Source of the DNA: Pseudomonadota bacterium | Lineage (GTDB): Bacteria > Pseudomonadota > Alphaproteobacteria > Acetobacterales > Acetobacteraceae | Assembly: GCA_021781835.1 (NCBI GenBank) | Contig: JAJXWD010000022.1 | Location: 1-44,914, forward strand | Length of the DNA stretch: 44,914 nucleotides | Reading direction: 5' to 3' | Part shown: positions 3,413-42,588 of the stretch, piece by piece | Layout of the letters: the number at the start of each line of letters is the position of its first letter | Position numbering within the stretch: the stretch's first letter is position 1 | The notes under the pieces: generated by a model | Told to the model about the DNA's origin: nothing | The model's database searches: none | What the model saw: the letters and a program-made list of their open reading frames with translations, nothing else | Program-made: the position numbers and the translations under genes

Positions 3413-3441
3413 AAAAACCCCCGCCACGGCGGGGGTTTTTT
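3413..3441 (+). terminator. Intrinsic terminator of uup
   Basis: A perfect 8-bp GC stem (CCCCCGCC at 3418-3425, GGCGGGGG at 3428-3435) with a 2-nt loop is followed by six T residues. Five A residues lie upstream, so it could also act on the opposite strand. It begins 11 bp after the uup stop. A copy of the dispersed element begins at the last T of the run. Confidence 0.88.
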
Positions 3442-3544
3442 AGATCGATATTGGTTTAGATTGCGTCGACAGACGCAAGCTAAACCAATGAAATTGATCG
3501 TTAAATATGCTTAGAGCGGGGGCGTCATAATGCATCCCGCTCTA
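3441..3544 (-). mobile_element. MITE-like two-hairpin element, copy 1
   Basis: This 104-bp copy of a dispersed element has ends TAGATC and GCTCTA. It holds hairpin A (3450-3489: ATTGGTTTAG arms around a perfect inner stem TTGCGTC/GACGCAA) and hairpin B (3512-3544: TAGAGCGGG and CCCGCTCTA arms). Relative to copies 3 and 4 it is inverted. It abuts the uup terminator on the left and lies 60 bp from the stop of the DUF3035 gene on the right. No direct repeat flanks it. It contains no open reading frame of its own. Confidence 0.82.
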
Positions 3545-8438: not shown

Positions 8439-9632
8439 ATGCGCGGCGTCATTAAATTTCTTGTCGGCCTGGCGGTTTTGGCCGCCATCGCCTGGGCGGG
8501 ACTGTGGGTTTACGCCCAGCATCGCCTGGCTGGCATGCTCAGCGCCTACGCCACCGCCGTCACCAGCCCCGACGGCACCAGCCAGCTCACCTATGACAGC
8601 CTGAGCACCGGCACCTCGCCGCTTTCGGCCACCGCCACGCTGCATGATGTGCGCCTGTCCCTCCAGCCGGCCGGGCTCGATTCCCCGGTGGTCGCGCGCC
8701 TGGCCACCGTCACCGCCCGCATCGACGCCACCCAGCCCCTGACCATGTATATCGACCTGCCCCCCCGGCTCGACATCACCGCCGACGGCAACGATGTCGT
8801 GCTCACCTTCGGCAGCGCCGCCCTGTCCGCCACTCTCGACCCCCAGCAGCTCTTCACCCCCGCCGCCAACGCCATCCTCGGCCAAAGCTTCGCCTTCACC
8901 AACCTCAACCTGCTCGGCTCCTCCGGCTCCATCCAGCTTGCCCACATGGACAACCTGTCCGGCACCGAGCATTTCGCCCTCCAGGCCTCCGCCGCCCAAA
9001 CCGCCCTCACCACCCACACCCAGCTCGATGGGCTGGTCCTGCCCCCCTGGCTCACCCAGCTCGCGCAGCTGCCCTTCGGCGGCAAGCTCGCCCATCTGTC
9101 GCTCGACCTCACCCTCTCCGGCCCGGTCGATTGGCGCGCCCTCGCCCAGCAGCTCCGCGCCAACCAAAATGAAGCCGCCCAGGAGCAGCTCCTGCTCACG
9201 ACCCTGCATGGCTGGGCGCTGGCTGGGGGCTCTGGCAGCCTGCACACCAACATCGTGCTCGGCCCCACCACGCTCGACGCCAGCGGCACGGTGAAATTCG
9301 ACGATTCCGCCCAGCCTTCGGGCCAGGCCAGCCTCACCGCCAACCATCTCGATGCCCTCGCCGCCCAGCTCACGCAGAGCTTCCCGGACACGCAAGACGA
9401 CATCAAGCAAGCCGAGGCCCAGCTCTCCCCCTACCTCACCACCACCAGCCAAGACGGCCAGCTCCTCACCCTCCATGCCACCTACGGCAAAACCGGCGTG
9501 ATCCTGAACGGCCAAAACATCGCCGACATGCCGCCCCTCGACTGGAACGCCCTGCTCAATCCGCCTGCGGACGATAATGGCGGCCTCGCCATCCCCGCCC
9601 CGGATGCCGGCTCCGGCGCCGCGAGCCCCTAG
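8439..9632 (+). CDS. DUF2125-like envelope protein
   Basis: A 397-residue protein starts at the ATG at 8439 (MRGVIKFLVGLAVLAAIAWA) with ACGGA just upstream. One N-terminal hydrophobic segment (about 4-22) could be a signal anchor. The rest is rich in Ser/Thr/Leu with alternating polar and apolar residues, typical of beta-rich periplasmic domains of the DUF2125 family of alphaproteobacteria (YDSLSTGTSPLSATATLHDVRL). Its function is unknown. The stop codon TAG (9630-9632) is the first triplet of the second MITE-like copy, so the C-terminus may have been set by that insertion. Codon use is strongly C-ending. The family call is moderately secure. Confidence 0.7.
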   Translation: MRGVIKFLVGLAVLAAIAWAGLWVYAQHRLAGMLSAYATAVTSPDGTSQLTYDSLSTGTSPLSATATLHDVRLSLQPAGLDSPVVARLATVTARIDATQPLTMYIDLPPRLDITADGNDVVLTFGSAALSATLDPQQLFTPAANAILGQSFAFTNLNLLGSSGSIQLAHMDNLSGTEHFALQASAAQTALTTHTQLDGLVLPPWLTQLAQLPFGGKLAHLSLDLTLSGPVDWRALAQQLRANQNEAAQEQLLLTTLHGWALAGGSGSLHTNIVLGPTTLDASGTVKFDDSAQPSGQASLTANHLDALAAQLTQSFPDTQDDIKQAEAQLSPYLTTTSQDGQLLTLHATYGKTGVILNGQNIADMPPLDWNALLNPPADDNGGLAIPAPDAGSGAASP

Positions 9633-9712
9633 ATCACTATTGGTTTGGATTGAGTCGACAGACGTAAGCTAAACCAATGAAATTGATCGTTAAAATATAA
9701 CTAGAGCGTGTG
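9630..9712 (-). mobile_element. MITE-like element, copy 2 (truncated)
   Basis: Hairpin A is complete (ATTGGTTTGG and CTAAACCAAT arms around TTGAGTC/GACGTAA, which contains two mismatches). Hairpin B is cut off after TAGAGCGTGTG, so this copy is decayed or truncated on its right side. Orientation is the same as copy 1. Its first three bases are the stop codon of the DUF2125 gene. Confidence 0.75.
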
Positions 9713-12473: not shown

Positions 12474-12673
12474 CCCCAGGGGGCGCTGCCCCCTGGACCC
12501 CCGCCAAGGGCCGAGAGGCCCTTGGATCCCACCCGGCTCTTGGAAGGGGATGCCCTTTCAAGGCTTCAGCCCCGTCGCGGCACGAAGCCGGGCATCCCCT
12601 TCCAAGAGCCGATTATTGAGGTCCAGGGTCTCGGACCCTGGCAGGGGGGCCTGGGGGGACAGCGTCCCCCCAG
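12474..12673. repeat. Symmetric hairpin array 1
   Basis: Five perfect hairpins fill the metF-uvrD gap. In order they are: CCAGGGGGC/GCCCCCTGG (12476-12496), CCAAGGGCC/GGCCCTTGG (12504-12525), a long hairpin with 21-bp arms (12535-12555 with 12590-12610), CCAGGGTC/GACCCTGG (12623-12641) and CTGGGGGGAC/GTCCCCCCAG (12651-12673). The two hairpin pairs face each other around the central one. The same layout recurs at about 17.3 and 25.4 kb. Roles as terminators, protein-binding sites or mobile repeats are all possible. Confidence 0.85.
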
Positions 12674-25390: not shown

Positions 25391-25588
25391 CCAAGGGGGC
25401 TTTGCCCCCCTTGACCCCCCACCAGGGGCCGAGCCCCTGGACCTCAATAGATTTCAAGCCTCAGAAAAGGGGGCCGCCCGTGCCGTTTCAAACGGCAAAA
25501 GCGGCCCCCTTTTCTGAGGCTTAACTATTTGGTTTCCAAAGGCCTCTCGGCCTTTGGCGGGGGTTCCAAGGGGGCAGGGCCCCCTTGG
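25391..25588. repeat. Symmetric hairpin array 3
   Basis: Hairpins in order: CAAGGGGGC/GCCCCCCTTG (25392-25413), CCAGGGGC/GCCCCTGG (25422-25440), a central hairpin with perfect 20-bp arms (25458-25477 with 25501-25520) whose loop holds GCCGTTT/AAACGGC, then CCAAAGGCC/GGCCTTTGG (25536-25557) and CCAAGGGGGC/GCCCCCTTGG (25566-25588). It separates the convergent APC permease and gapR genes. The AAAAGGGGG/CCCCCTTTT central stem can act as a terminator in both directions. Confidence 0.85.
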
Positions 25589-28370: not shown

Positions 28371-28984
28371 TCATCCCGCGCCTGGTTGGGATTTTGGCCA
28401 GATGAGCCACAAAACCAGCACCAGCAGCGGCGCGCCGGGCGAGATCCCCAGATGCGAGAGCACGGGGTAGAGGCTGGTGCCGGCATCGAGCAGCGCCAGC
28501 GCCGCCAAGCTGAGCGAGAGAAAGGGCAGGTCGTAGATCATGGCGAGCGGCACTAGAGCGGGATGCGTTATGACGCACCCGCCCTAGTTATATTTTAACG
28601 ATCAATTTCATTCGTTTAGCTTACGTCTGTCGACTCAATCTAAACCAATATTGATCTAGGCACGCCGCCACCAGCGCCACCCCCGAGCAGATCCCAGCAT
28701 ATATAGGCCACCGGCTCTGGCAGCCGGGTGAAGGGGGTGATCAGCAGCAGAAAGGGCGGCGGGTAGTAAAAGCTGGCGATGCCGGGCGTGATGTCTGGCA
28801 CCGGCTGCGCGAAAGCCCGGGCGCTGTGCCAGAACAGGTCGAAATCATAGGGGACGAAGCCGCCCGTATGGGCGCTGACCCCGCGATGGGCGTAAACATC
28901 GAACAGCAGGGCGGCGAGCGCCGAGAGGCCGATGACCGCGCCGTAAAGCCGTGTTTCAACACGCCCCGGCGCGGCGGGGCTCAC
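28371..28984 (-). pseudogene. GT87/DUF2029-like membrane protein gene, interrupted by MITE-like element
   Basis: The gene starts with a GTG at 28984 that overlaps the gshA stop as GTGA. The 5' part encodes membrane-protein sequence with features of GT87 (DUF2029) polyprenyl-phosphate mannosyltransferases: VPYDFDLFWHSARAFA and SFYYPPPFLLLITPF. At 28658 the frame runs into the 105-bp element and stops inside it. Past the element, from 28553, the sequence resumes as a hydrophobic C-terminus (LAMIYDLPFLSLSLAALALL). Removing the element and one copy of the flanking GGCAC (110 bp) rejoins both parts in one frame of about 167 residues. GT87 proteins are normally about 400 residues, so an internal deletion probably preceded the insertion. 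Confidence 0.8.
28554..28658 (+). mobile_element. MITE-like element, copy 3, with 5-bp target duplication
   Basis: This 105-bp copy runs from TAGAGC to GATCTA and is flanked on both sides by GGCAC (28549-28553 and 28659-28663). It holds hairpin B (28554-28586, TAGAGCGGG and CCCGCCCTA arms with inner TGCGT/ACGCA) and hairpin A (ATTCGTTTAG and CTAAACCAAT arms, outer GATCAAT/ATTGATC). It carries no coding sequence, so movement would need a transposase encoded elsewhere. It lies inside a GT87-like gene. Confidence 0.88.
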
Positions 28985-30348
28985 AACGCCCCGGCCTCGA
29001 AAATGTGCCGGACCTCGCCCTGCCAGGCGCCGTGATAGAGGGCCAGCCAATGTTCGGCCTGGGTGGGGGCGCCGGCGGCGATTTCGGCCAGCGGGTCGAG
29101 ATAGGATTGCTCGTCCCGCCCCTGCTCGTCTTGCCTGTCGCGCGCCCGCAGCCCGGCCTGGGCGATGGCCACCACCTCGGCGGCCAGGGCGCGCAGGGTT
29201 TGGGCGCCCAGGGGGGTGTTGATGCCGGTGCGCGGCACCTCGGCGCGCAGGCCGAGCAGGGTTGGGTAGGGGATGGTGCGGCTCAGCTCATAGGCGGCGT
29301 TCAGGGCCGTCTCATCGTAGAGCAGCCCGGTCCAGAGGGCGCTTTGGGCCAGCATCATGGCCGGGCTGCCGGCATCGGCGCCACGGGTTTCGAGGTAGGT
29401 TTTCAGCCGGACATCGGGGAAGGCGGTGGTGGCGTGGTCGGCGAAATCGCCGACCGTCGCGCGCGCGCCGGGCAGGGCTTCGAGGCGCCCGGCCATGAAA
29501 TCGCGGAAGGATTTGCCCAGGGCGTCGATGTAGTGGCCATCGCGGTAGACGAAATACATCGGCACATCGAGCAGCCATTCGGCGTAACGCTCGAAGCCGA
29601 AACCATCCTCGAAAATGACGGCGGGGATGCCAGAGCGCGCATTGTCGGTGTCGGTCCAGGCCAGGGCGCGGTTGGAGAGGTAGCCGTTGGGCTTGCCCTC
29701 ATAGAAGGGCGAATTGGCGAACAGGGCGGTGGCGAGCGGCTGGAAGGTGCTGGCCACGCGGAGTTTCTTGACCATGTCGGCCTCGGACGCGAAATCCAGA
29801 TTGGCCTGGACGGTGCAGGTTCGAAACATCATGTCCAGCCCCCGCGAGCCCACCGTGGGCATGTAGGCGCGCATGAGCTGGTAGCGGCCCTTGGGCATCA
29901 TGGGCATGTCGGCGCGGGTGGCCTGGGGATGGAAGCCCAGCGGCGCGAAGCCAAGGCCCAGCGCGGGCGCGAGCTTGTGCAGACGGGCGATGTGGGCGTC
30001 CAGCTCGGCCTTGGTTTGGTGCAGGGTTTCGAGCGGCGCGCCCGAAAGCTCGAACTGCCCGCCCGGCTCGAGCGAGATGGAGGCGCCCCGCCACTTGAGG
30101 CCGATGACGTTTTCGCCGTCCAGAATGGGTTCGGCGCCGGTTTCCTCGCGCATGCGCCCGAGCAGCGCCTGGATGCCGGCGGGGCCTTCATAGGCCGGGG
30201 GGCGGCAATCTGGGCGGGTGAAGCCGAACGCCTCGTGCTCGGTGCCGATGCGGAAGCTCGCGCGCGGCTTGCACCCCGACGCCAGATAAGCGGCGAGGTC
30301 GCGCACTGAGCCTATGGGCCGGTTATCGGCATCACCCGGGTTCGACAA
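28981..30348 (-). CDS. gshA: Glutamate-cysteine ligase (plant/alphaproteobacterial type)
   Basis: A 455-residue enzyme for the first step of glutathione synthesis, GCS2 family. Recognisable parts are IGTEHEAFGF near the N-terminus (substrate Glu), SLEPGGQFELSGAP, PKGRYQLMRAYMPTVG, MFRTCTVQANLDF and the LDVPMYFVYR segment, all typical of the proteobacterial/plant class rather than E. coli GshA. It lies 20 bp after rsmE and its stop overlaps the start of the GT87-like pseudogene. Symbol use varies in this class (gshA or gcl). Confidence 0.93.
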   Translation of the reverse strand: MSNPGDADNRPIGSVRDLAAYLASGCKPRASFRIGTEHEAFGFTRPDCRPPAYEGPAGIQALLGRMREETGAEPILDGENVIGLKWRGASISLEPGGQFELSGAPLETLHQTKAELDAHIARLHKLAPALGLGFAPLGFHPQATRADMPMMPKGRYQLMRAYMPTVGSRGLDMMFRTCTVQANLDFASEADMVKKLRVASTFQPLATALFANSPFYEGKPNGYLSNRALAWTDTDNARSGIPAVIFEDGFGFERYAEWLLDVPMYFVYRDGHYIDALGKSFRDFMAGRLEALPGARATVGDFADHATTAFPDVRLKTYLETRGADAGSPAMMLAQSALWTGLLYDETALNAAYELSRTIPYPTLLGLRAEVPRTGINTPLGAQTLRALAAEVVAIAQAGLRARDRQDEQGRDEQSYLDPLAEIAAGAPTQAEHWLALYHGAWQGEVRHIFEAGAL

Positions 30349-33734: not shown

Positions 33735-33989
33735 AGGTTTTATGCAACGCCGCTGGCAGCAAGCCATAGGGCGGGCGTTGCCCGCCCTACGGTCTAATGT
33801 CGGTTTTTGGTGGGTACAAAACGGCTCCGACACGGCCGCCCTGGGCGCTGAGCCGATGCAGCGGCGCGTACCCATCGCCATGCGCCGCGTCCATGGCGGT
33901 GATGGGGGGGGGCGGTGCGCTGTACCCATCCTGCCGGCTCATGCCCCGGTTGAAACTTGACGGGTGGGGGCGGGTTGGGTGAAAGATAA
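33735..33989. repeat. Intergenic region with a perfect palindromic repeat
   Basis: No convincing gene lies here. A perfect hairpin TAGGGCGGGC/GCCCGCCCTA with loop GTT (33767-33789) follows the AT-rich gene and resembles REP-type repeats. The right half is GC-rich, close to the window norm, and ends in CTTGACGGGTGG (33956-33967), a match to the sequence left of the AT-rich gene. Confidence 0.6.
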
Positions 33990-34067
33990 TGCACCGGGGT
34001 GCTCGCGTGGTGCGGGCTGAGATTATACCCGTTGAACCTGTCTGGGTAATGCCAGCGAAGGGATGCA
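33990..34067 (+). promoter_or_regulatory. TPP riboswitch (THI element)
   Basis: The thiamine pyrophosphate aptamer is unmistakable: GGGGTGC at the 5' side, GGCTGAGA, ACCCGTTGAACCTG, then CTGGGTAATGCCAGCGAAGGGA. A short P1 can form between TGCA at 33990-33993 and TGCA at 34064-34067. The Shine-Dalgarno sequence of thiY (AAGGGA, 34058-34063) is the last conserved aptamer segment, so ligand binding should block translation directly without a separate expression platform. Confidence 0.96.
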
Positions 34068-34071
34068 GATC

Positions 34072-35019
34072 ATGCTCTCACGCCGTTCGTTTGTTGTTTC
34101 CGCCGCCCTGGCCGCGCCGGCCATCGCGCGCGCCGCGGGTGAACCGTTCACGCTGTTGCTGGACTGGTTTGTGAACCCCGACCATGCGCCGCTGTTCGCG
34201 GCGAAAACCTGCGGGGCGTTTGCCCGCGCGGGGCTGGCGGTGACGATGACCGCCCCCACCGACCCCGATCTGCCGCCCCGGCTGGTGGGCGCGGGCAAGG
34301 CCGATGCCTGCCTCAGCTATCAGCCCCAGCTTTACCAGTTCGTGGATAAGGGCCTGCCGGTGAAGCGGGTGGCGACGCTGATTGACCAGCCGCTTGATAC
34401 GCTGACCGCGCTGGGGGCGAGCGGGATTAAGACCATCGCCGATCTGAAGGGGCGCAAGATTGGGTATTCGGTGGAGGGGTTTGAGACCGTGCTGATCGGC
34501 ACCATGCTGAAAAGCGCGGGGCTGACGCTCGCCGATGTGACGCTGGTGAATGTGAATTTTAATCTGGTGACCGCGCTGCAGGCCAAGGAAGTGGATGCGG
34601 TGATTGGCACGTACCGGACTTATGAGGATATTCAGCTGGCGCAGGACGGGCTGGCGCCGGTGATCTTCGCGCCCGAGGATTATGGGGTGCCGCGTTCGGA
34701 CGAGCTGATTATGCTGGCCAATGACCGGAGCGTGGGCAGCGACAAGATGCGCCGCTTCGTGGCGGCGCTGGGCGAAGGGGTGGCGGCGCTGAAGAGCGAT
34801 CCGCAGGCCATGCTGGCGGGGTTTTTGAAAGATAATCCGAGCCTGAACGACAAGCTCGACCTGGCCTCGTGGGGGGCGCTGGTGCCGGGGTGTTTCGCGC
34901 CCGCGCCTGGCGCGCTGGATGGGGCGAAATACCGGCGCTACCGCGACTTCATGGCCGCGAACGGGCTGATTAAGCACGCGCTGCCACTGGCCGATTACGC
35001 CGTGGCCACCAAAGCCTGA
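34072..35019 (+). CDS. thiY: ThiY-type pyrimidine precursor binding protein (NMT1/THI5-like)
   Basis: A periplasmic binding protein of the NMT1/THI5 family that delivers a hydroxymethylpyrimidine precursor of thiamine to an ABC importer. The ATG at 34072 gives 315 residues and lies 8 bp from AAGGGA; an ATG at 34063 lies inside the riboswitch P1. The N-terminus MLSRRSFVVSAALAAPAIARA is a twin-arginine signal. Family features include LLDWFVNPDHAPLF, YQPQLYQF, GYSVEGFE and the PEDYGVPRSDELI segment. Control by TPP and the following ATPase and permease genes support the role. Confidence 0.93.
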   Translation: MLSRRSFVVSAALAAPAIARAAGEPFTLLLDWFVNPDHAPLFAAKTCGAFARAGLAVTMTAPTDPDLPPRLVGAGKADACLSYQPQLYQFVDKGLPVKRVATLIDQPLDTLTALGASGIKTIADLKGRKIGYSVEGFETVLIGTMLKSAGLTLADVTLVNVNFNLVTALQAKEVDAVIGTYRTYEDIQLAQDGLAPVIFAPEDYGVPRSDELIMLANDRSVGSDKMRRFVAALGEGVAALKSDPQAMLAGFLKDNPSLNDKLDLASWGALVPGCFAPAPGALDGAKYRRYRDFMAANGLIKHALPLADYAVATKA

Positions 35020-35023
35020 GACC

Positions 35024-35752
35024 GTGGGCCCGGCGCCTGGCATTACCATAACCGGGGCGACGCTGACCTATGACGGGGCGGCGGTGTTCGCGGGGCTGGA
35101 TGTGATGCTGGAGGCCGGGCGGCTGAGCGCGCTGCTGGGGCCGAGCGGCGTGGGCAAGACCAGCCTGCTGCGCGCCATCGCCGGGCTGGAGCGGCTGGAT
35201 GAAGGGACCGTGCACGCCAGCGACGGCGCGCCCCTGGCCGGGCGGGTGGCGTGGATGGCGCAGCGCGATTTGCTGCTGCCCTGGGCGGATGCGCTGGGCA
35301 ATGTGACGCTGGGCGCGAGGCTGCGGGGAGAAAAGCCCGATGCCGGGCGGGCCGAGGGGCTGCTGGCGCGCGTGGGGCTGGCCGAGAAGCGCCGCGCGCT
35401 GCCGGCCACGCTCTCGGGCGGGGAGCGCCAGAGGGTGGCGCTGGCCCGCACGCTTTATGAAGACAAGCCCGTGGTGCTGATGGATGAGCCGTTTTCGGCG
35501 CTCGATGCCATTACGCGCGCCAGGTTGCAGGAGTTGGCGGCGGACGTGCTGGCCGGGCGGACCGTGCTGCTGATTACCCACGACCCCTGGGAAGCCTGCC
35601 GGCTTGGCGAGGCGGTGTATGTGCTGAGCGGGCGGCCGGCCACGCTTTCGGCGCCGCTGGTGCTGGACGGCGCCATACCGCGCGCGCCCGATGACGAGGC
35701 GGCGCTGCGCGCGCAGGGGCGGCTGCTGAAGCGGCTGGAGGTGGGGGCGTGA
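35024..35752 (+). CDS. thiZ: ABC transporter ATPase for thiamine pyrimidine precursor
   Basis: A 242-residue ATPase with Walker A GPSGVGKT (about 38-45), Q-loop region MAQRDLLLPW, signature LSGGERQR, Walker B VVLMDEP and the ITHDPWEA H-loop. It belongs to the nitrate/sulfonate/taurine-type group, as ThiZ does. The GTG start at 35024 is 4 bp after the thiY stop. Its own stop overlaps the thiX start (GTGA). It powers the ThiXYZ importer from the cytoplasmic side. Confidence 0.9.
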   Translation: MGPAPGITITGATLTYDGAAVFAGLDVMLEAGRLSALLGPSGVGKTSLLRAIAGLERLDEGTVHASDGAPLAGRVAWMAQRDLLLPWADALGNVTLGARLRGEKPDAGRAEGLLARVGLAEKRRALPATLSGGERQRVALARTLYEDKPVVLMDEPFSALDAITRARLQELAADVLAGRTVLLITHDPWEACRLGEAVYVLSGRPATLSAPLVLDGAIPRAPDDEAALRAQGRLLKRLEVGA

Positions 35753-36483
35753 AGCGGGCGCTGGCCATGGCACTGGGGCTGCTGGGCGCCTGGTGGGGGG
35801 TGAGCGCGCTGGCGCTGGTGCCTGAGTTCATGCTGCCCTCGCCCGCCGAGGTGGCGCTGGCGGGGTGGCAGAACGGCGCGTACCTGGCCCAGAACGCGCT
35901 GGTGACGGGGAGCGAGATTTTGCTCGGGCTGCTGTGTGGCACGGCGCTGGGAGCGGGGGCGGCGCTGGTGATCGCGGCGTCGGGCACGCTGCAACGCTGG
36001 CTGATGCCGCTGCTGGTGGTCTCGCAGGCGGTGCCGGTGTTTGCGCTGGCGCCGCTGATGGTGCTGTGGCTGGGGTTTGGGCTGGCCTCGAAAGTGGCGC
36101 TGGCGGTGCTGGTGATCTTTTTTCCGGTGACGGCGAATTTTTTGGACGGGCTGCGGCGCACCGAGCCGGGGTGGCTGGATTTGGCCGCCACCATGGGCGC
36201 CAGGCCGTGGCGCGTGCTGCTGGGGCTGCGTTTGCCCGCCGCGCTGCCGGCGCTGGCCTCGGGCGTGCGGGTGGCGGCGGCGGTGGCGCCGATTGGGGCG
36301 GTGCTGGGCGAATGGGTGGGGGCTTCGAGCGGGCTGGGCTATGTGATGCTCAACGCCAATGCGCGCATTGAGACGGCGCTGATGTTTGCCGCGCTGCTGG
36401 TGCTGGGGGTGATGAGCGTGACGCTCTATGTGGCGGTGGACCGCGGCTTGCGCGCCGCTTTGCGCTGGAGCCCGGGAGGGTAG
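35749..36483 (+). CDS. thiX: ABC transporter permease for thiamine pyrimidine precursor
   Basis: A 244-residue integral membrane protein of the BPD_transp_1 (SsuC/TauC-like) group with about six hydrophobic segments. The EAA loop is visible as LDLAATMGARPWRVLLGLRLPAALP. The GTG at 35749 overlaps the thiZ stop. The stop codon TAG (36481-36483) consists of the first three bases of the fourth MITE-like copy, so the native C-terminus may have been altered. It completes the TPP-controlled thiYZX operon. Confidence 0.9.
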   Translation: MKRALAMALGLLGAWWGVSALALVPEFMLPSPAEVALAGWQNGAYLAQNALVTGSEILLGLLCGTALGAGAALVIAASGTLQRWLMPLLVVSQAVPVFALAPLMVLWLGFGLASKVALAVLVIFFPVTANFLDGLRRTEPGWLDLAATMGARPWRVLLGLRLPAALPALASGVRVAAAVAPIGAVLGEWVGASSGLGYVMLNANARIETALMFAALLVLGVMSVTLYVAVDRGLRAALRWSPGG

Positions 36484-36585
36484 AGCGGGATGCGTTATGA
36501 CGCACCCGCTCTACCTTTATTTTAGCGATCAATTTCATTGGTTTAGCTCGAATCTGGCGATTCGATCTAAACCAATATTGATCTA
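36481..36585 (+). mobile_element. MITE-like two-hairpin element, copy 4
   Basis: A full 105-bp copy. Hairpin B (36481-36513) is almost perfect: TAGAGCGGG/CCCGCTCTA with inner TGCGT/ACGCA. Hairpin A (36527-36583) has outer GATCAAT/ATTGATC, middle ATTGGTTTAG/CTAAACCAAT and a perfect inner stem TCGAATC/GATTCGA that differs from copy 1 on both strands. Both ends form stop codons: TAG of thiX on the plus strand and TAG of the TAXI gene on the minus strand. No flanking direct repeat is seen. Confidence 0.86.
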
Positions 36586-40695: not shown

Positions 40696-42588
40696 TTACT
40701 CCGCGGCGGCGCGTTCCGCGAGGGGCGCGGGGGGCAAAAATTCCGGCACCTGGCGCTGGAGCAGGGCGAGGGCGGCGGGCGTGTCGCCTTGGGCGGCGAG
40801 GCCGGACAGCTCATCGAGGGCCGCGCGGATCTCGGCCAGGGCGGCGCGCCGGGGGGTGGCGACCAGCAGGCCCGGCACAGAGGTGGGGCGCGGGGTTTCG
40901 GCGCCGTGGAAGAGCTGCTCGAACAGTTTTTCGCCGGGGCGGATGCCGGTGAATTCGATTTTGATGTCGGTCTCGGGGCGCAGGCCGGCGAGCTGGATCA
41001 TTTGGCGGGCGAGGTCGAGGATGCGCAGCGGCTCGCCCATGTCGAGCACGAAGATGCCGCCTTCGGGGACGATGGCGGGGTCGGCGCCCACGGACGCCGC
41101 CTGGAGGCAGAGCCCGACCGCTTCCTTGGCGGTCATGAAATAGCGGCGCATTTCGGGGGAGGTGACGGTGAGCGGGCCGCCCTGGGCGAGCTGGTGGCGG
41201 AACAGCTCGACCACCGAGCCGGTGGAGCCCAGAACATTGCCAAACCGTACCGTGACCACCCGCAGGCCGGCGCGGGCGTGGCGGGCCTCGATGTCGCGCG
41301 CCTGGGCGTAGAGCTCGGCCAGGCGCTTGGTGGCGCCCATGACCGAGCTGGGGTTGACCGCCTTGTCGGTGGAGATGAGGACCATGAGGCGGGCGCCCGA
41401 GTGGGCCGCGGCATCGGCCACCACGCGGGTGCCGAGCGCGTTGGTGCGCAGGGCTTCGAGCGGGTTGGACTCGACCAGGGGGACATGTTTGAGGGCGGCC
41501 GCGTGGAGCACGAGATCGGGGGTGAAGCCCTGGCAGAGCGCGGTTATGCGGGGCTCATCGCGGATGTCGGCGATGACCGCCTGGCGGGGCAGATGGGGGG
41601 CGGTTTCGGCCAGTTCGCGCTCGATCCGCCAGAGGGCGTATTCGGACGAATCGAGCAGCAGCAGCTCGGCCGGGGCCAGCGCCGCGACCTGGCGGGTGAG
41701 TTCGGCGCCGATCGACCCGCCCGCCCCGGTGACCAGCACGCGCGCGCCGGTGATGAGGGCCGCCATGCGCGCCAGATCGAGCGGGAGTTGCGGGCGCTGG
41801 AGCAGATCCTCGATGGCGATGGGGGCGAGGGCGGGGATGCCGTGGGCCGGGGCCAGACGGGTGAGGCTGGGGGTGCGCGCAACCGCCAGACCCAGAGCGG
41901 CGGCGCTGTCGAGCAGGCCGCGCAGGCCGGGGCCGGTGAGCACGCTGGCGGTGATGATGAGCAGGTCTGGCCGGGGGGTGAGGCGGCCAAGCGCGGCTTC
42001 GGCGTCATCGAGGCTGGCGATGATGTCGAGCCCGGCCATGCGGCCGCCGGCAGAGCGGGGCGAGAGGGCGATGAGGCCGCAAATGCGGTAGGGCGCGGCG
42101 GGCGCGCGGGCATGGGCGGCCAGGAACAGCTCGGCCTCCTCGCCGCTGCCCACCAAAATGGCGCGGCGATACCGGGCGGAGGCGGGCCGGACCAGCCGGC
42201 GCTCGCGCCATTGGCGGTAGAGCAGCTTGGGGAGGGTGAGCAGCGTGCTCTGCACCAGCGCCAGAATGACCGGAAAGCCGGGCGATGGCAGGCGCAGCCC
42301 GGCGCCCAGCATGAACAGCGAGAGCAGCAGCGCGACGGCCAGCCCGGACAGCGCCAGGGCCACCAGGTCGCGGAAGGAGACGAAGCGCCAATGAAGGCGC
42401 GCGAAGCCCAGGGGCAGACCGATGAGCCAAAAAACCAGCGCCCCGCCGAGCGCCAGGGGCAGCGGGCAATGGCCGTCTGGCCGGGCCAGCCACCAGGCCG
42501 CCGCCACGCCCAGCGACGCCGACGCGCCATCGAACGCCAGGTTGAGCGCCATGCGGCGAAGCAGATGCGGCGAGGCGTTTTGTCTCAT
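40696..42588 (-). CDS. CapD/WbpM-type membrane nucleotide-sugar 4,6-dehydratase
   Basis: A 630-residue protein. The N-terminal 130 residues contain four membrane segments, followed by a cytoplasmic Rossmann-like region (about 141-280) and the SDR catalytic domain with TGAGGSIG (287-294), AAALKHVPLVE, STDKAVNP and the S-M-K active-site motif VNPSSVMGATKR (411-422). Such proteins make UDP-4-keto-6-deoxy-HexNAc for surface polysaccharide or glycoprotein sugars. The ATG at 42588 (MRQNASPHLLRR) is used; a frame from 42624 adds 12 unlikely residues. No glycosyltransferase lies nearby. Confidence 0.9.
   Translation of the reverse strand: MRQNASPHLLRRMALNLAFDGASASLGVAAAWWLARPDGHCPLPLALGGALVFWLIGLPLGFARLHWRFVSFRDLVALALSGLAVALLLSLFMLGAGLRLPSPGFPVILALVQSTLLTLPKLLYRQWRERRLVRPASARYRRAILVGSGEEAELFLAAHARAPAAPYRICGLIALSPRSAGGRMAGLDIIASLDDAEAALGRLTPRPDLLIITASVLTGPGLRGLLDSAAALGLAVARTPSLTRLAPAHGIPALAPIAIEDLLQRPQLPLDLARMAALITGARVLVTGAGGSIGAELTRQVAALAPAELLLLDSSEYALWRIERELAETAPHLPRQAVIADIRDEPRITALCQGFTPDLVLHAAALKHVPLVESNPLEALRTNALGTRVVADAAAHSGARLMVLISTDKAVNPSSVMGATKRLAELYAQARDIEARHARAGLRVVTVRFGNVLGSTGSVVELFRHQLAQGGPLTVTSPEMRRYFMTAKEAVGLCLQAASVGADPAIVPEGGIFVLDMGEPLRILDLARQMIQLAGLRPETDIKIEFTGIRPGEKLFEQLFHGAETPRPTSVPGLLVATPRRAALAEIRAALDELSGLAAQGDTPAALALLQRQVPEFLPPAPLAERAAAE

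Follow-up and report, generated by a model that had tools for sequence, protein, structure and literature searches.

How did a gene-less element of 105 bp with two hairpins come to lie inside a GT87-like gene, and what could have carried it there? The element, TAGAGC...GATCTA, is read directly at 28554-28658 of the window, by which we mean the whole 44,914-nucleotide stretch of DNA analysed here; the window is contig C7 of a genome of 2.9 Mb in 75 contigs (G000), which we call the own genome. A sequence-only reading of this DNA had described a non-autonomous, MITE-like mobile element caught inside the gene with a 5-bp target duplication. The mobile element stands, borne out by its copies, its target and its element-free sites; the 5-bp duplication does not. 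We consider it very probable that a transposase of the IS630 family (Tc1/mariner superfamily) mobilised the element in trans, as a non-autonomous MITE, and find that its target is YTAR with duplication of TA.

A two-hairpin element in a decayed gene

The two hairpins that had been proposed were supported by RNA folding (z -5.9 and -7.3, one per strand), and GGCAC does lie on either side of the element (Table 1). Each arm is itself an inverted repeat, while the two ends of the element share only TAGAKC. Reverse-complemented and taken with its TA, the right arm resembles the transposase-5' end of IS630 elements. An Rfam search at gathering score matched the element to no RNA family; the only Rfam match in the window is a TPP riboswitch at 33985-34079 (RF00059, 62 bits). 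The window also holds a GC-rich inverted repeat pair, 84% complementary, at 12614-12658 and 25405-25449, which is unlike the 105-bp element.

The surrounding minus-strand gene is GT87-like, as had been proposed, with a Pfam GT87 match of E 3.8e-5 and 24 bits against a cut-off of 25. Its orthologue in a sister species (genome G007, a MAG of JAKBAD01, with 83-87% DNA identity to the window around this locus) is an intact open frame of 408 codons. Compared with that frame, the window gene is short of about 190 codons at the element (between IAWD and AMIYD), of 13 codons further on and of about 12 bp left of the element; immediately ahead of the element, the alignment of the gene also has two gaps, one of 2 bases and one of 3. 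The deletion to the right of the element spans about 540 bp (in L045 the site is at 937 and homology resumes at about 1481). This bears on the frame argument of the earlier reading, in which removal of the element plus one GGCAC was offered as independent support: the gene has also lost about 540 bp beside the element, and the parts that a 110-bp removal joins (GGVP and LAMIYD) lie apart in the orthologue; the frame is restored by accident. Insertion, followed by deletion between short similar sequences, is the simplest account of the locus.

Table 1. Coordinates of the element, its surroundings and its relatives in the window
Feature	Positions	Strand	Remark
Two-hairpin element, 105 bp	28554..28658	+	left arm at left; net insertion 103 bp
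Left TA of TA target duplication (target C-TA-G)	28554..28555	.	
Right TA of TA target duplication	28657..28658	.	
Left arm: imperfect palindrome, 33 bp, TA at both ends	28554..28586	+	varies between species
AT-rich linker joining the two arms	28587..28599	+	
Right arm: bulged hairpin GATC...GATC	28600..28656	+	
GACTC, a GANTC (CcrM site) in the apical stem of the right arm	28632..28636	.	positions 23-27 from right terminus
GGCAC left of element	28549..28553	.	pre-existing target sequence, not duplication
GGCAC right of element	28659..28663	.	sister species: GGCAG there, no element
5' part of decayed GT87-like gene	28691..28990	-	start approximate
3' remnant of GT87-like gene (AMIYD...WPKSQP)	28377..28541	-	further small deletions
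Second copy, 104 bp	3441..3544	-	
Third copy, left arm eroded	9630..9712	-	
Fourth copy	36481..36585	+	different apical stem, two GANTC sites

Copies in the genome and its relatives

The three further copies that had been pointed out in the window proved to be relatives of the element. The fourth supplies the TAG that terminates an open reading frame at 35749-36483; at the same TA the sister species carries a different hairpin of 48 bp, TAGAGC...GCTCTA (L229:1041-1088), and the same gene end (...RWSPGG, then stop) takes its TAG from the copy in the one genome and from this hairpin in the other.

Among the matches listed by a DNA search of the own genome (best 40 of 91 candidates scored), at least 24 other copies share 95% identity or more with the reported one, which suggests a recent burst. 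From 32 copies we built a covariance model; its 147 listed rows include reverse-strand self matches (best 150 of 875 candidates scored), and the 80 best-scoring own-genome copies of that list make up the set tabulated here. The element thus displays MITE traits: it is short and gene-less, has many copies (the 80 best tabulated) and duplicates TA. Two of the own copies (C3:16897-17001 and C10:34428-34532) sit between the halves of inverted repeats resembling terminator stems.

Across the 61 genomes searched (the own genome, 36 of the same genus and 24 from other genera of the class), the element was matched by DNA in 17, all of them in the genus of the window's genome; named carriers include Acidocella aquatica (G009), MAG Acidiphilium sp. 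37-60-79 and MAG Rhodospirillales bacterium 20-60-12. A 17-base pattern search returned at least 93 stretches and yielded 49 elements with both ends recognised in named relatives; the listed matches of the same pattern in Rhizobium, Bacillus and similar were judged by eye to be unrelated sequence. A plasmid search using the element as query gave no match. At two loci of MAG 20-60-12 (L090 and L144) the right arm has quite different palindromes attached on its left, and the left arm accordingly appears to be an exchangeable module.

The target is YTAR and the duplication is TA

We examined four boundary placements and duplication lengths of 2-9 on 46 copies, and then 5-bp matches on the 80 best own copies. 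Matching 5-bp flanks were found in one of these 80, the reported copy itself, and in none of the 49 copies of named relatives. The sequence-only reading had named, as what would refute its insertion, the absence of a 5-bp duplication from other copies together with the lack of an uninterrupted gene in relatives; on the first count, with no such duplication at the rest of the 80, the 5-bp mechanism fails.

What the copies show instead is a TA duplication at a YTAR target. TA at both ends, with a length of 104-106, is found in 48 of the 80 best own copies, the others being mutated or eroded at an end or of another length. To the left of TA in these 48 clean copies, a count that keeps any members of tandem pairs, stands a pyrimidine in 44 (C 32, T 12, G 4), and to its right a purine in all 48 (G 25, A 23). 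On the assumption that copies are independent, which they are not fully, the chance of such a bias is about 4e-15 on the right and 1e-9 on the left; nearby sequence is about half purine. The remaining 32 copies show G 16 and A 16 on the right, and T 14, C 13, G 4 and A 1 on the left, and the elements of named relatives have a pyrimidine on the left in 36 of the 40 with TA present there and a purine on the right in 32/33. Among the matches listed for the own genome, at least three tandem pairs overlap by exactly TA, and one more lies at L135. Another own copy (C4:41214) shares its TA with a hairpin repeat of a different kind (L184, C4 at about 41094-41215), which lies in tandem with it and has GANTC at base 23.

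Sites without the element in the sister species agree with this target. Both flanks of 7 of the best 80 copies (numbers 9, 15, 35, 38, 42, 43 and 60) were matched within 700 bp of each other in the sampled G007 sequence; numbers 47, 53 and 67 were left out, their flanks lying on one G007 stretch but 1-3 kb apart. Six of the seven sites are element-free in G007, with 2-37 bases between the flanks or, at number 35, an intact open frame; the seventh, number 38 (window 36481), holds the different 48-bp hairpin. Three of the six (numbers 43, 35 and 9) fit one retained TA-equivalent, the other three being blurred by divergence; numbers 43 and 35 align ungapped at the site, and number 9 has equal spacing with gaps needed on its right. 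In a reciprocal case, one site is filled in G007 and is without the element in the own genome. The insertion itself therefore stands, with an uninterrupted GT87-like orthologue and other empty sites in the sister species. Number 35 is the reported copy: G007 reads GGCGAGCGGCAC-CA-GGCAGGCGGCCACCA where the window has GGCGAGCGGCAC-TA-GGCACGCCGCCACCA. Because the element-free site already reads GGCAC-CA-GGCAG, the GGCAC...GGCA near-repeat is older than the insertion.

IS630 elements with similar ends

The earlier reading had proposed looking for a transposase gene with TAGAGC ends; the search succeeded in related genomes, where such genes are those of IS630-family elements. Of 38 genomes in the genus, 27 have IS630-family (PF13358) matches. 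In 24 of 30 fetched IS630 loci, inverted ends bounded by TA were sought automatically, and TA-GAGC ends were identified at 5 of the 24: two copies in G007 and single ones in G017, G018 and G047. The other loci had other ends, none found, or ends off the contig. The G007 element, a PF13358 match 1053 bp long, has two open frames (of 148 and 201 residues, measured from stop to stop) and ends in TAGAGCTTGATTGGTTTAAATTG and TAGAGCGTGGTTGGTTTTGATTGAATCGGGGGATTC (in an alternative rendering, TAGAGCTTGATTGGTTTA / TAGAGCGTGGTTGGTTTTGATTGAATCGGGGGATTC); the flanks of its two copies are C/A and A/A, the latter not Y/R. YTAR flanks were found at all 17 plasmid-borne IS630 elements with definable ends. 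The 48-bp G007 hairpin starts like one end of the G047 IS: TAGAGCAGTTTCC.

The right end of our element, reversed, reads TAGATCAATATTGGTTTAGATTGAGTC. Tried against five IS630 elements, it is identical to the transposase-5' end at 23-26 of 36 positions (64-72%), a match equalled by none of 5,000 letter shuffles for any of the five; it is identical to the 3' end at 20-22 of 36, the shuffles covering the 5' end only. The left end agrees with either IS630 end at 10-12 of 14 positions. Given identity of this order and the nearly equal fit to the 3' end, the G007 IS is a relative and not a proven parent.

In the fragmentary own assembly we found no IS630 with TAGAGC-type ends; its single PF13358 match, at the start of contig C46, by eye resembles another end type, and the 1053-bp IS as query (best 12 of 92 candidates scored) found only a 46-bp fragment. 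We infer both the mobilisation in trans and which IS would have driven the burst in the own genome. The earlier reading's pointer to TAGAGC repeats in Rhizobiales proved useful, since IS630 elements of rhizobia bear TAGAGC ends, a comparison confined to IS ends. Of the two families searched, IS630 and IS5, the IS5 type (PF13340) was rejected as mobiliser: an automated end search covering 27 of 30 fetched loci found no TAGAGC ends, and the own genome has no PF13340 match. An IS630 of G051 (L291:900-2170, contig C69) was likewise set aside as a partner with shared ends, since by eye it has a TGTC-type end and lies at one end of a related hairpin, into which it has inserted at CTC-TA-GAGC, much as IS711 has into Bru-RS.

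CcrM sites at the same distance from the terminus

The apical stem of the right arm contains GANTC in 60 of the 80 best own copies and in 46 of 54 aligned elements (47 of the 49 from named relatives, L118 and L169 being left out, plus 7 own copies). It starts at base 23 from the terminus in 41 of the 54; in 50 of the best 80 own copies the start is at element position 79, the equivalent of base 23. Of the 54, 25 have the pair GANTC-N4-GANTC. Covariation within the alignment affects the N of GANTC and the flanking pair; G, A, T and C are mostly constant. Changes on both sides were counted in 12 base pairs of the hairpins, a number inflated by relatedness, versus 6.0 +/- 1.2 after shuffling and 2-7 with the partner slid.

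We compared these positions with a set of 21 IS630 elements, comprising 17 of 20 plasmid-borne relatives of the G007 IS (L328, L334 and L338 were without definable ends) and 4 elements from the genus. The end search gave a bonus for AGC after the first base and so favoured such ends; moreover, with three of the four genus elements near-identical and several of the plasmid-borne ones closely related, we estimate that the 21 represent perhaps a dozen independent lineages. In 20 of the 21, all but ISMno11, the first base of a GANTC is base 23 counted from the transposase-5' terminus; a second GANTC lies at 30-36 in 18/21, and one at 52-59 in 20/21. The opposite end has any GANTC in 2/21 and two in none, and inner 80-bp windows average 0.011. 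At least two sites fall within the 5' end of 20/21 elements, as against a mean of 0.6/21 and a maximum of 5 in shuffles. The second GANTC of the repeat, at 32, coincides with the second site of the G007 IS.

The pattern TAGAGC-N16-GANTC has 275 matches in 58 genomes of the class, compared with 78 for a reversed-pattern control. Nine genomes have at least 10 matches each (none does in the control), and outside those nine the counts are 87 versus 59, a slight excess. One genome of the class (G025) has 64 matches against 2 in the control, many of them near contig ends, suggesting IS expansion.

The repeat may have inherited its CcrM sites from IS630 ends, to judge by their position and the sequence around them. 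A RAMA-domain gene is present in the window's genome, with a control match in Caulobacter; we take a RAMA domain at the end of the protein to mark CcrM. An own copy with an inverted left arm (L220, C26:75686-75790) provides the TAG stop of a RAMA-domain, CcrM-type methylase gene, and this adjoining methylase is likely to be the one that methylates the GANTC sites on that copy.

Comparison with known repeats

The element fits the description of the Caulobacter CcrM-associated intergenic repeats, or CIRs; the likeness is one of description and not of CIR1-CIR4 sequence. As summarised in passages of two reviews (Chen and Shapiro 2003, via PMC2229807 and PMC10969869), CIRs have two inverted-repeat arms and a linker, measure about 110 bp, and carry GANTC at the tip of one arm and TA termini (PMC2229807). 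Ours shares all of this, including the length of about 110 bp, in an alphaproteobacterial host. It differs in coming from an Acidocella-type member of the Acetobacteraceae and in having one copy inside a now-decayed gene, whereas CIRs are given as strictly intergenic (PMC10969869), a status that is descriptive and not defining. In the consulted part of PMC2229807 the CIR target duplication is listed as '?', the mechanism of mobility is said to need more information and the function of the CcrM site to be undetermined; to this description our element adds a YTAR target, a TA duplication and a candidate IS630 partner.

Passages of the same review describe RUP of Streptococcus pneumoniae as a MITE of IS630-Spn1, 107 bp long, with a TA target and IS630-like ends (PMC2229807). 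By description our element resembles RUP in its size, its TA target and ends that resemble those of an IS630 element, and it probably works as RUP does with IS630-Spn1, as a MITE moved by an IS630 transposase. It differs from RUP in its two arms, repeats other than CIR being described there as folding by end-to-end pairing (PMC2229807), and in its unrelated host; those review passages do not mention GANTC for RUP. Bru-RS1 and Bru-RS2 of Brucella, likewise alphaproteobacterial, are palindromic repeats of 103-105 bp, in one of which IS711 is inserted at a YTAR site with TA duplication; compared by description, the relation differs from that between our element and IS630, in that the passages on IS711 have it inserting into Bru-RS and do not propose it as the mobiliser. 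IS630 elements of the ISRm2011-2 group have TAGAGC-type ends, YTAR flanks and GANTC at position 23 of the transposase-5' end in common with the repeat; they are about 1050 bp long and encode a transposase, whereas the repeat has no gene.

Discussion

How the element came to its present surroundings admits of two further accounts. The earlier one, in which a MITE of another transposase family makes 5-bp duplications and GGCAC is its footprint, is almost certainly wrong: it explains GGCAC on both sides of 28554-28658, but matching flanks occur in only 1/80 best own copies and 0/49 related copies, the orthologue read GGCAC-CA-GGCAG without any element, and its frame argument fails with about 540 bp missing as well. 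That missing stretch would be explained if two copies had inserted near its ends and recombined, deleting what lay between, with the GGCAC match pure chance. Allowing for one 3-base gap, the right flank aligns at least as closely with the distant G007 site; by eye, however, it also fits the site beside the left flank, where 14 of the 16 bases that follow TA are identical. This near site is one base from CTAG, whereas the distant one has CC instead of TA, and insertion plus a short-homology deletion needs fewer events. We therefore regard recombination between two copies as rather unlikely.

It is also conceivable, though improbable in our judgement, that the cell retains the repeats as chromosomal sites serving some role (linked to CcrM, transcription ends or mRNA stability), and that they spread rarely, their mobility being incidental. 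Compensatory changes keep both hairpins paired across species (the 12 double-change pairs versus 6.0 +/- 1.2), GANTC is mostly retained while its free N covaries, and some copies provide stop codons or sit within flanking inverted repeats, all of which such a role would account for. Set against it are the 24 or more other copies at least 95% identical to the reported one, the six examined sites that are element-free in sister species, and a choice of target that is that of an IS; IS630 ends also explain the placement of GANTC. The hairpins, with their conserved bulge, resemble REP/BIME units, and could suggest a REP/RAYT-type element moved on single-stranded hairpins by a Y1 (HuH) transposase. 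REP/RAYT elements have a linked Y1 transposase and are not known to duplicate TA, and for that class a YTAR target, tandem copies sharing TA and IS630 ends of the same terminus type would be unexpected; we hold this to be extremely improbable.

Mobilisation by an IS630 transposase would proceed as follows. The transposase would recognise the TA-GAGC and TA-GATC ends and insert the element at a YTAR site, with a TA left at either side. The reported copy would have entered C-TA-G in the GT87-like gene, which would then have decayed, losing about 540 bp beside the element. The right arm would descend from, or have been shaped by, the transposase-5' end of an IS630 element, its GANTC sites kept at the same distance from the terminus, and the left arm would be a short palindrome with the same type of terminus.

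Dam control of IS10, IS50 and IS903 transposition is described in the literature (PMC9296519), and by analogy CcrM may control transposition here. It is possible, and we propose it tentatively, that alphaproteobacterial IS630 elements are under cell-cycle control by CcrM, the GANTC 23 bases inside the transposase-5' end, with the additional ones at about 30-36 and 52-59, tying transposition or transposase expression to hemimethylation after passage of the fork, much as Dam does in IS10 and IS50, and that CIRs are their MITEs. A literature search found no paper stating a link between IS630 and GANTC, which is not proof of absence.

For a CIR-like repeat there are now a rule of target choice, sites free of the element and a candidate family of transposases, and its CcrM site begins at the same base as that of IS630 elements from several alphaproteobacterial families. 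Why such repeats carry CcrM sites thereby becomes a testable question on the control of IS630 transposition by methylation; if that control were real, the association of CIRs with CcrM would be explained without a cell-cycle role for the repeats themselves.
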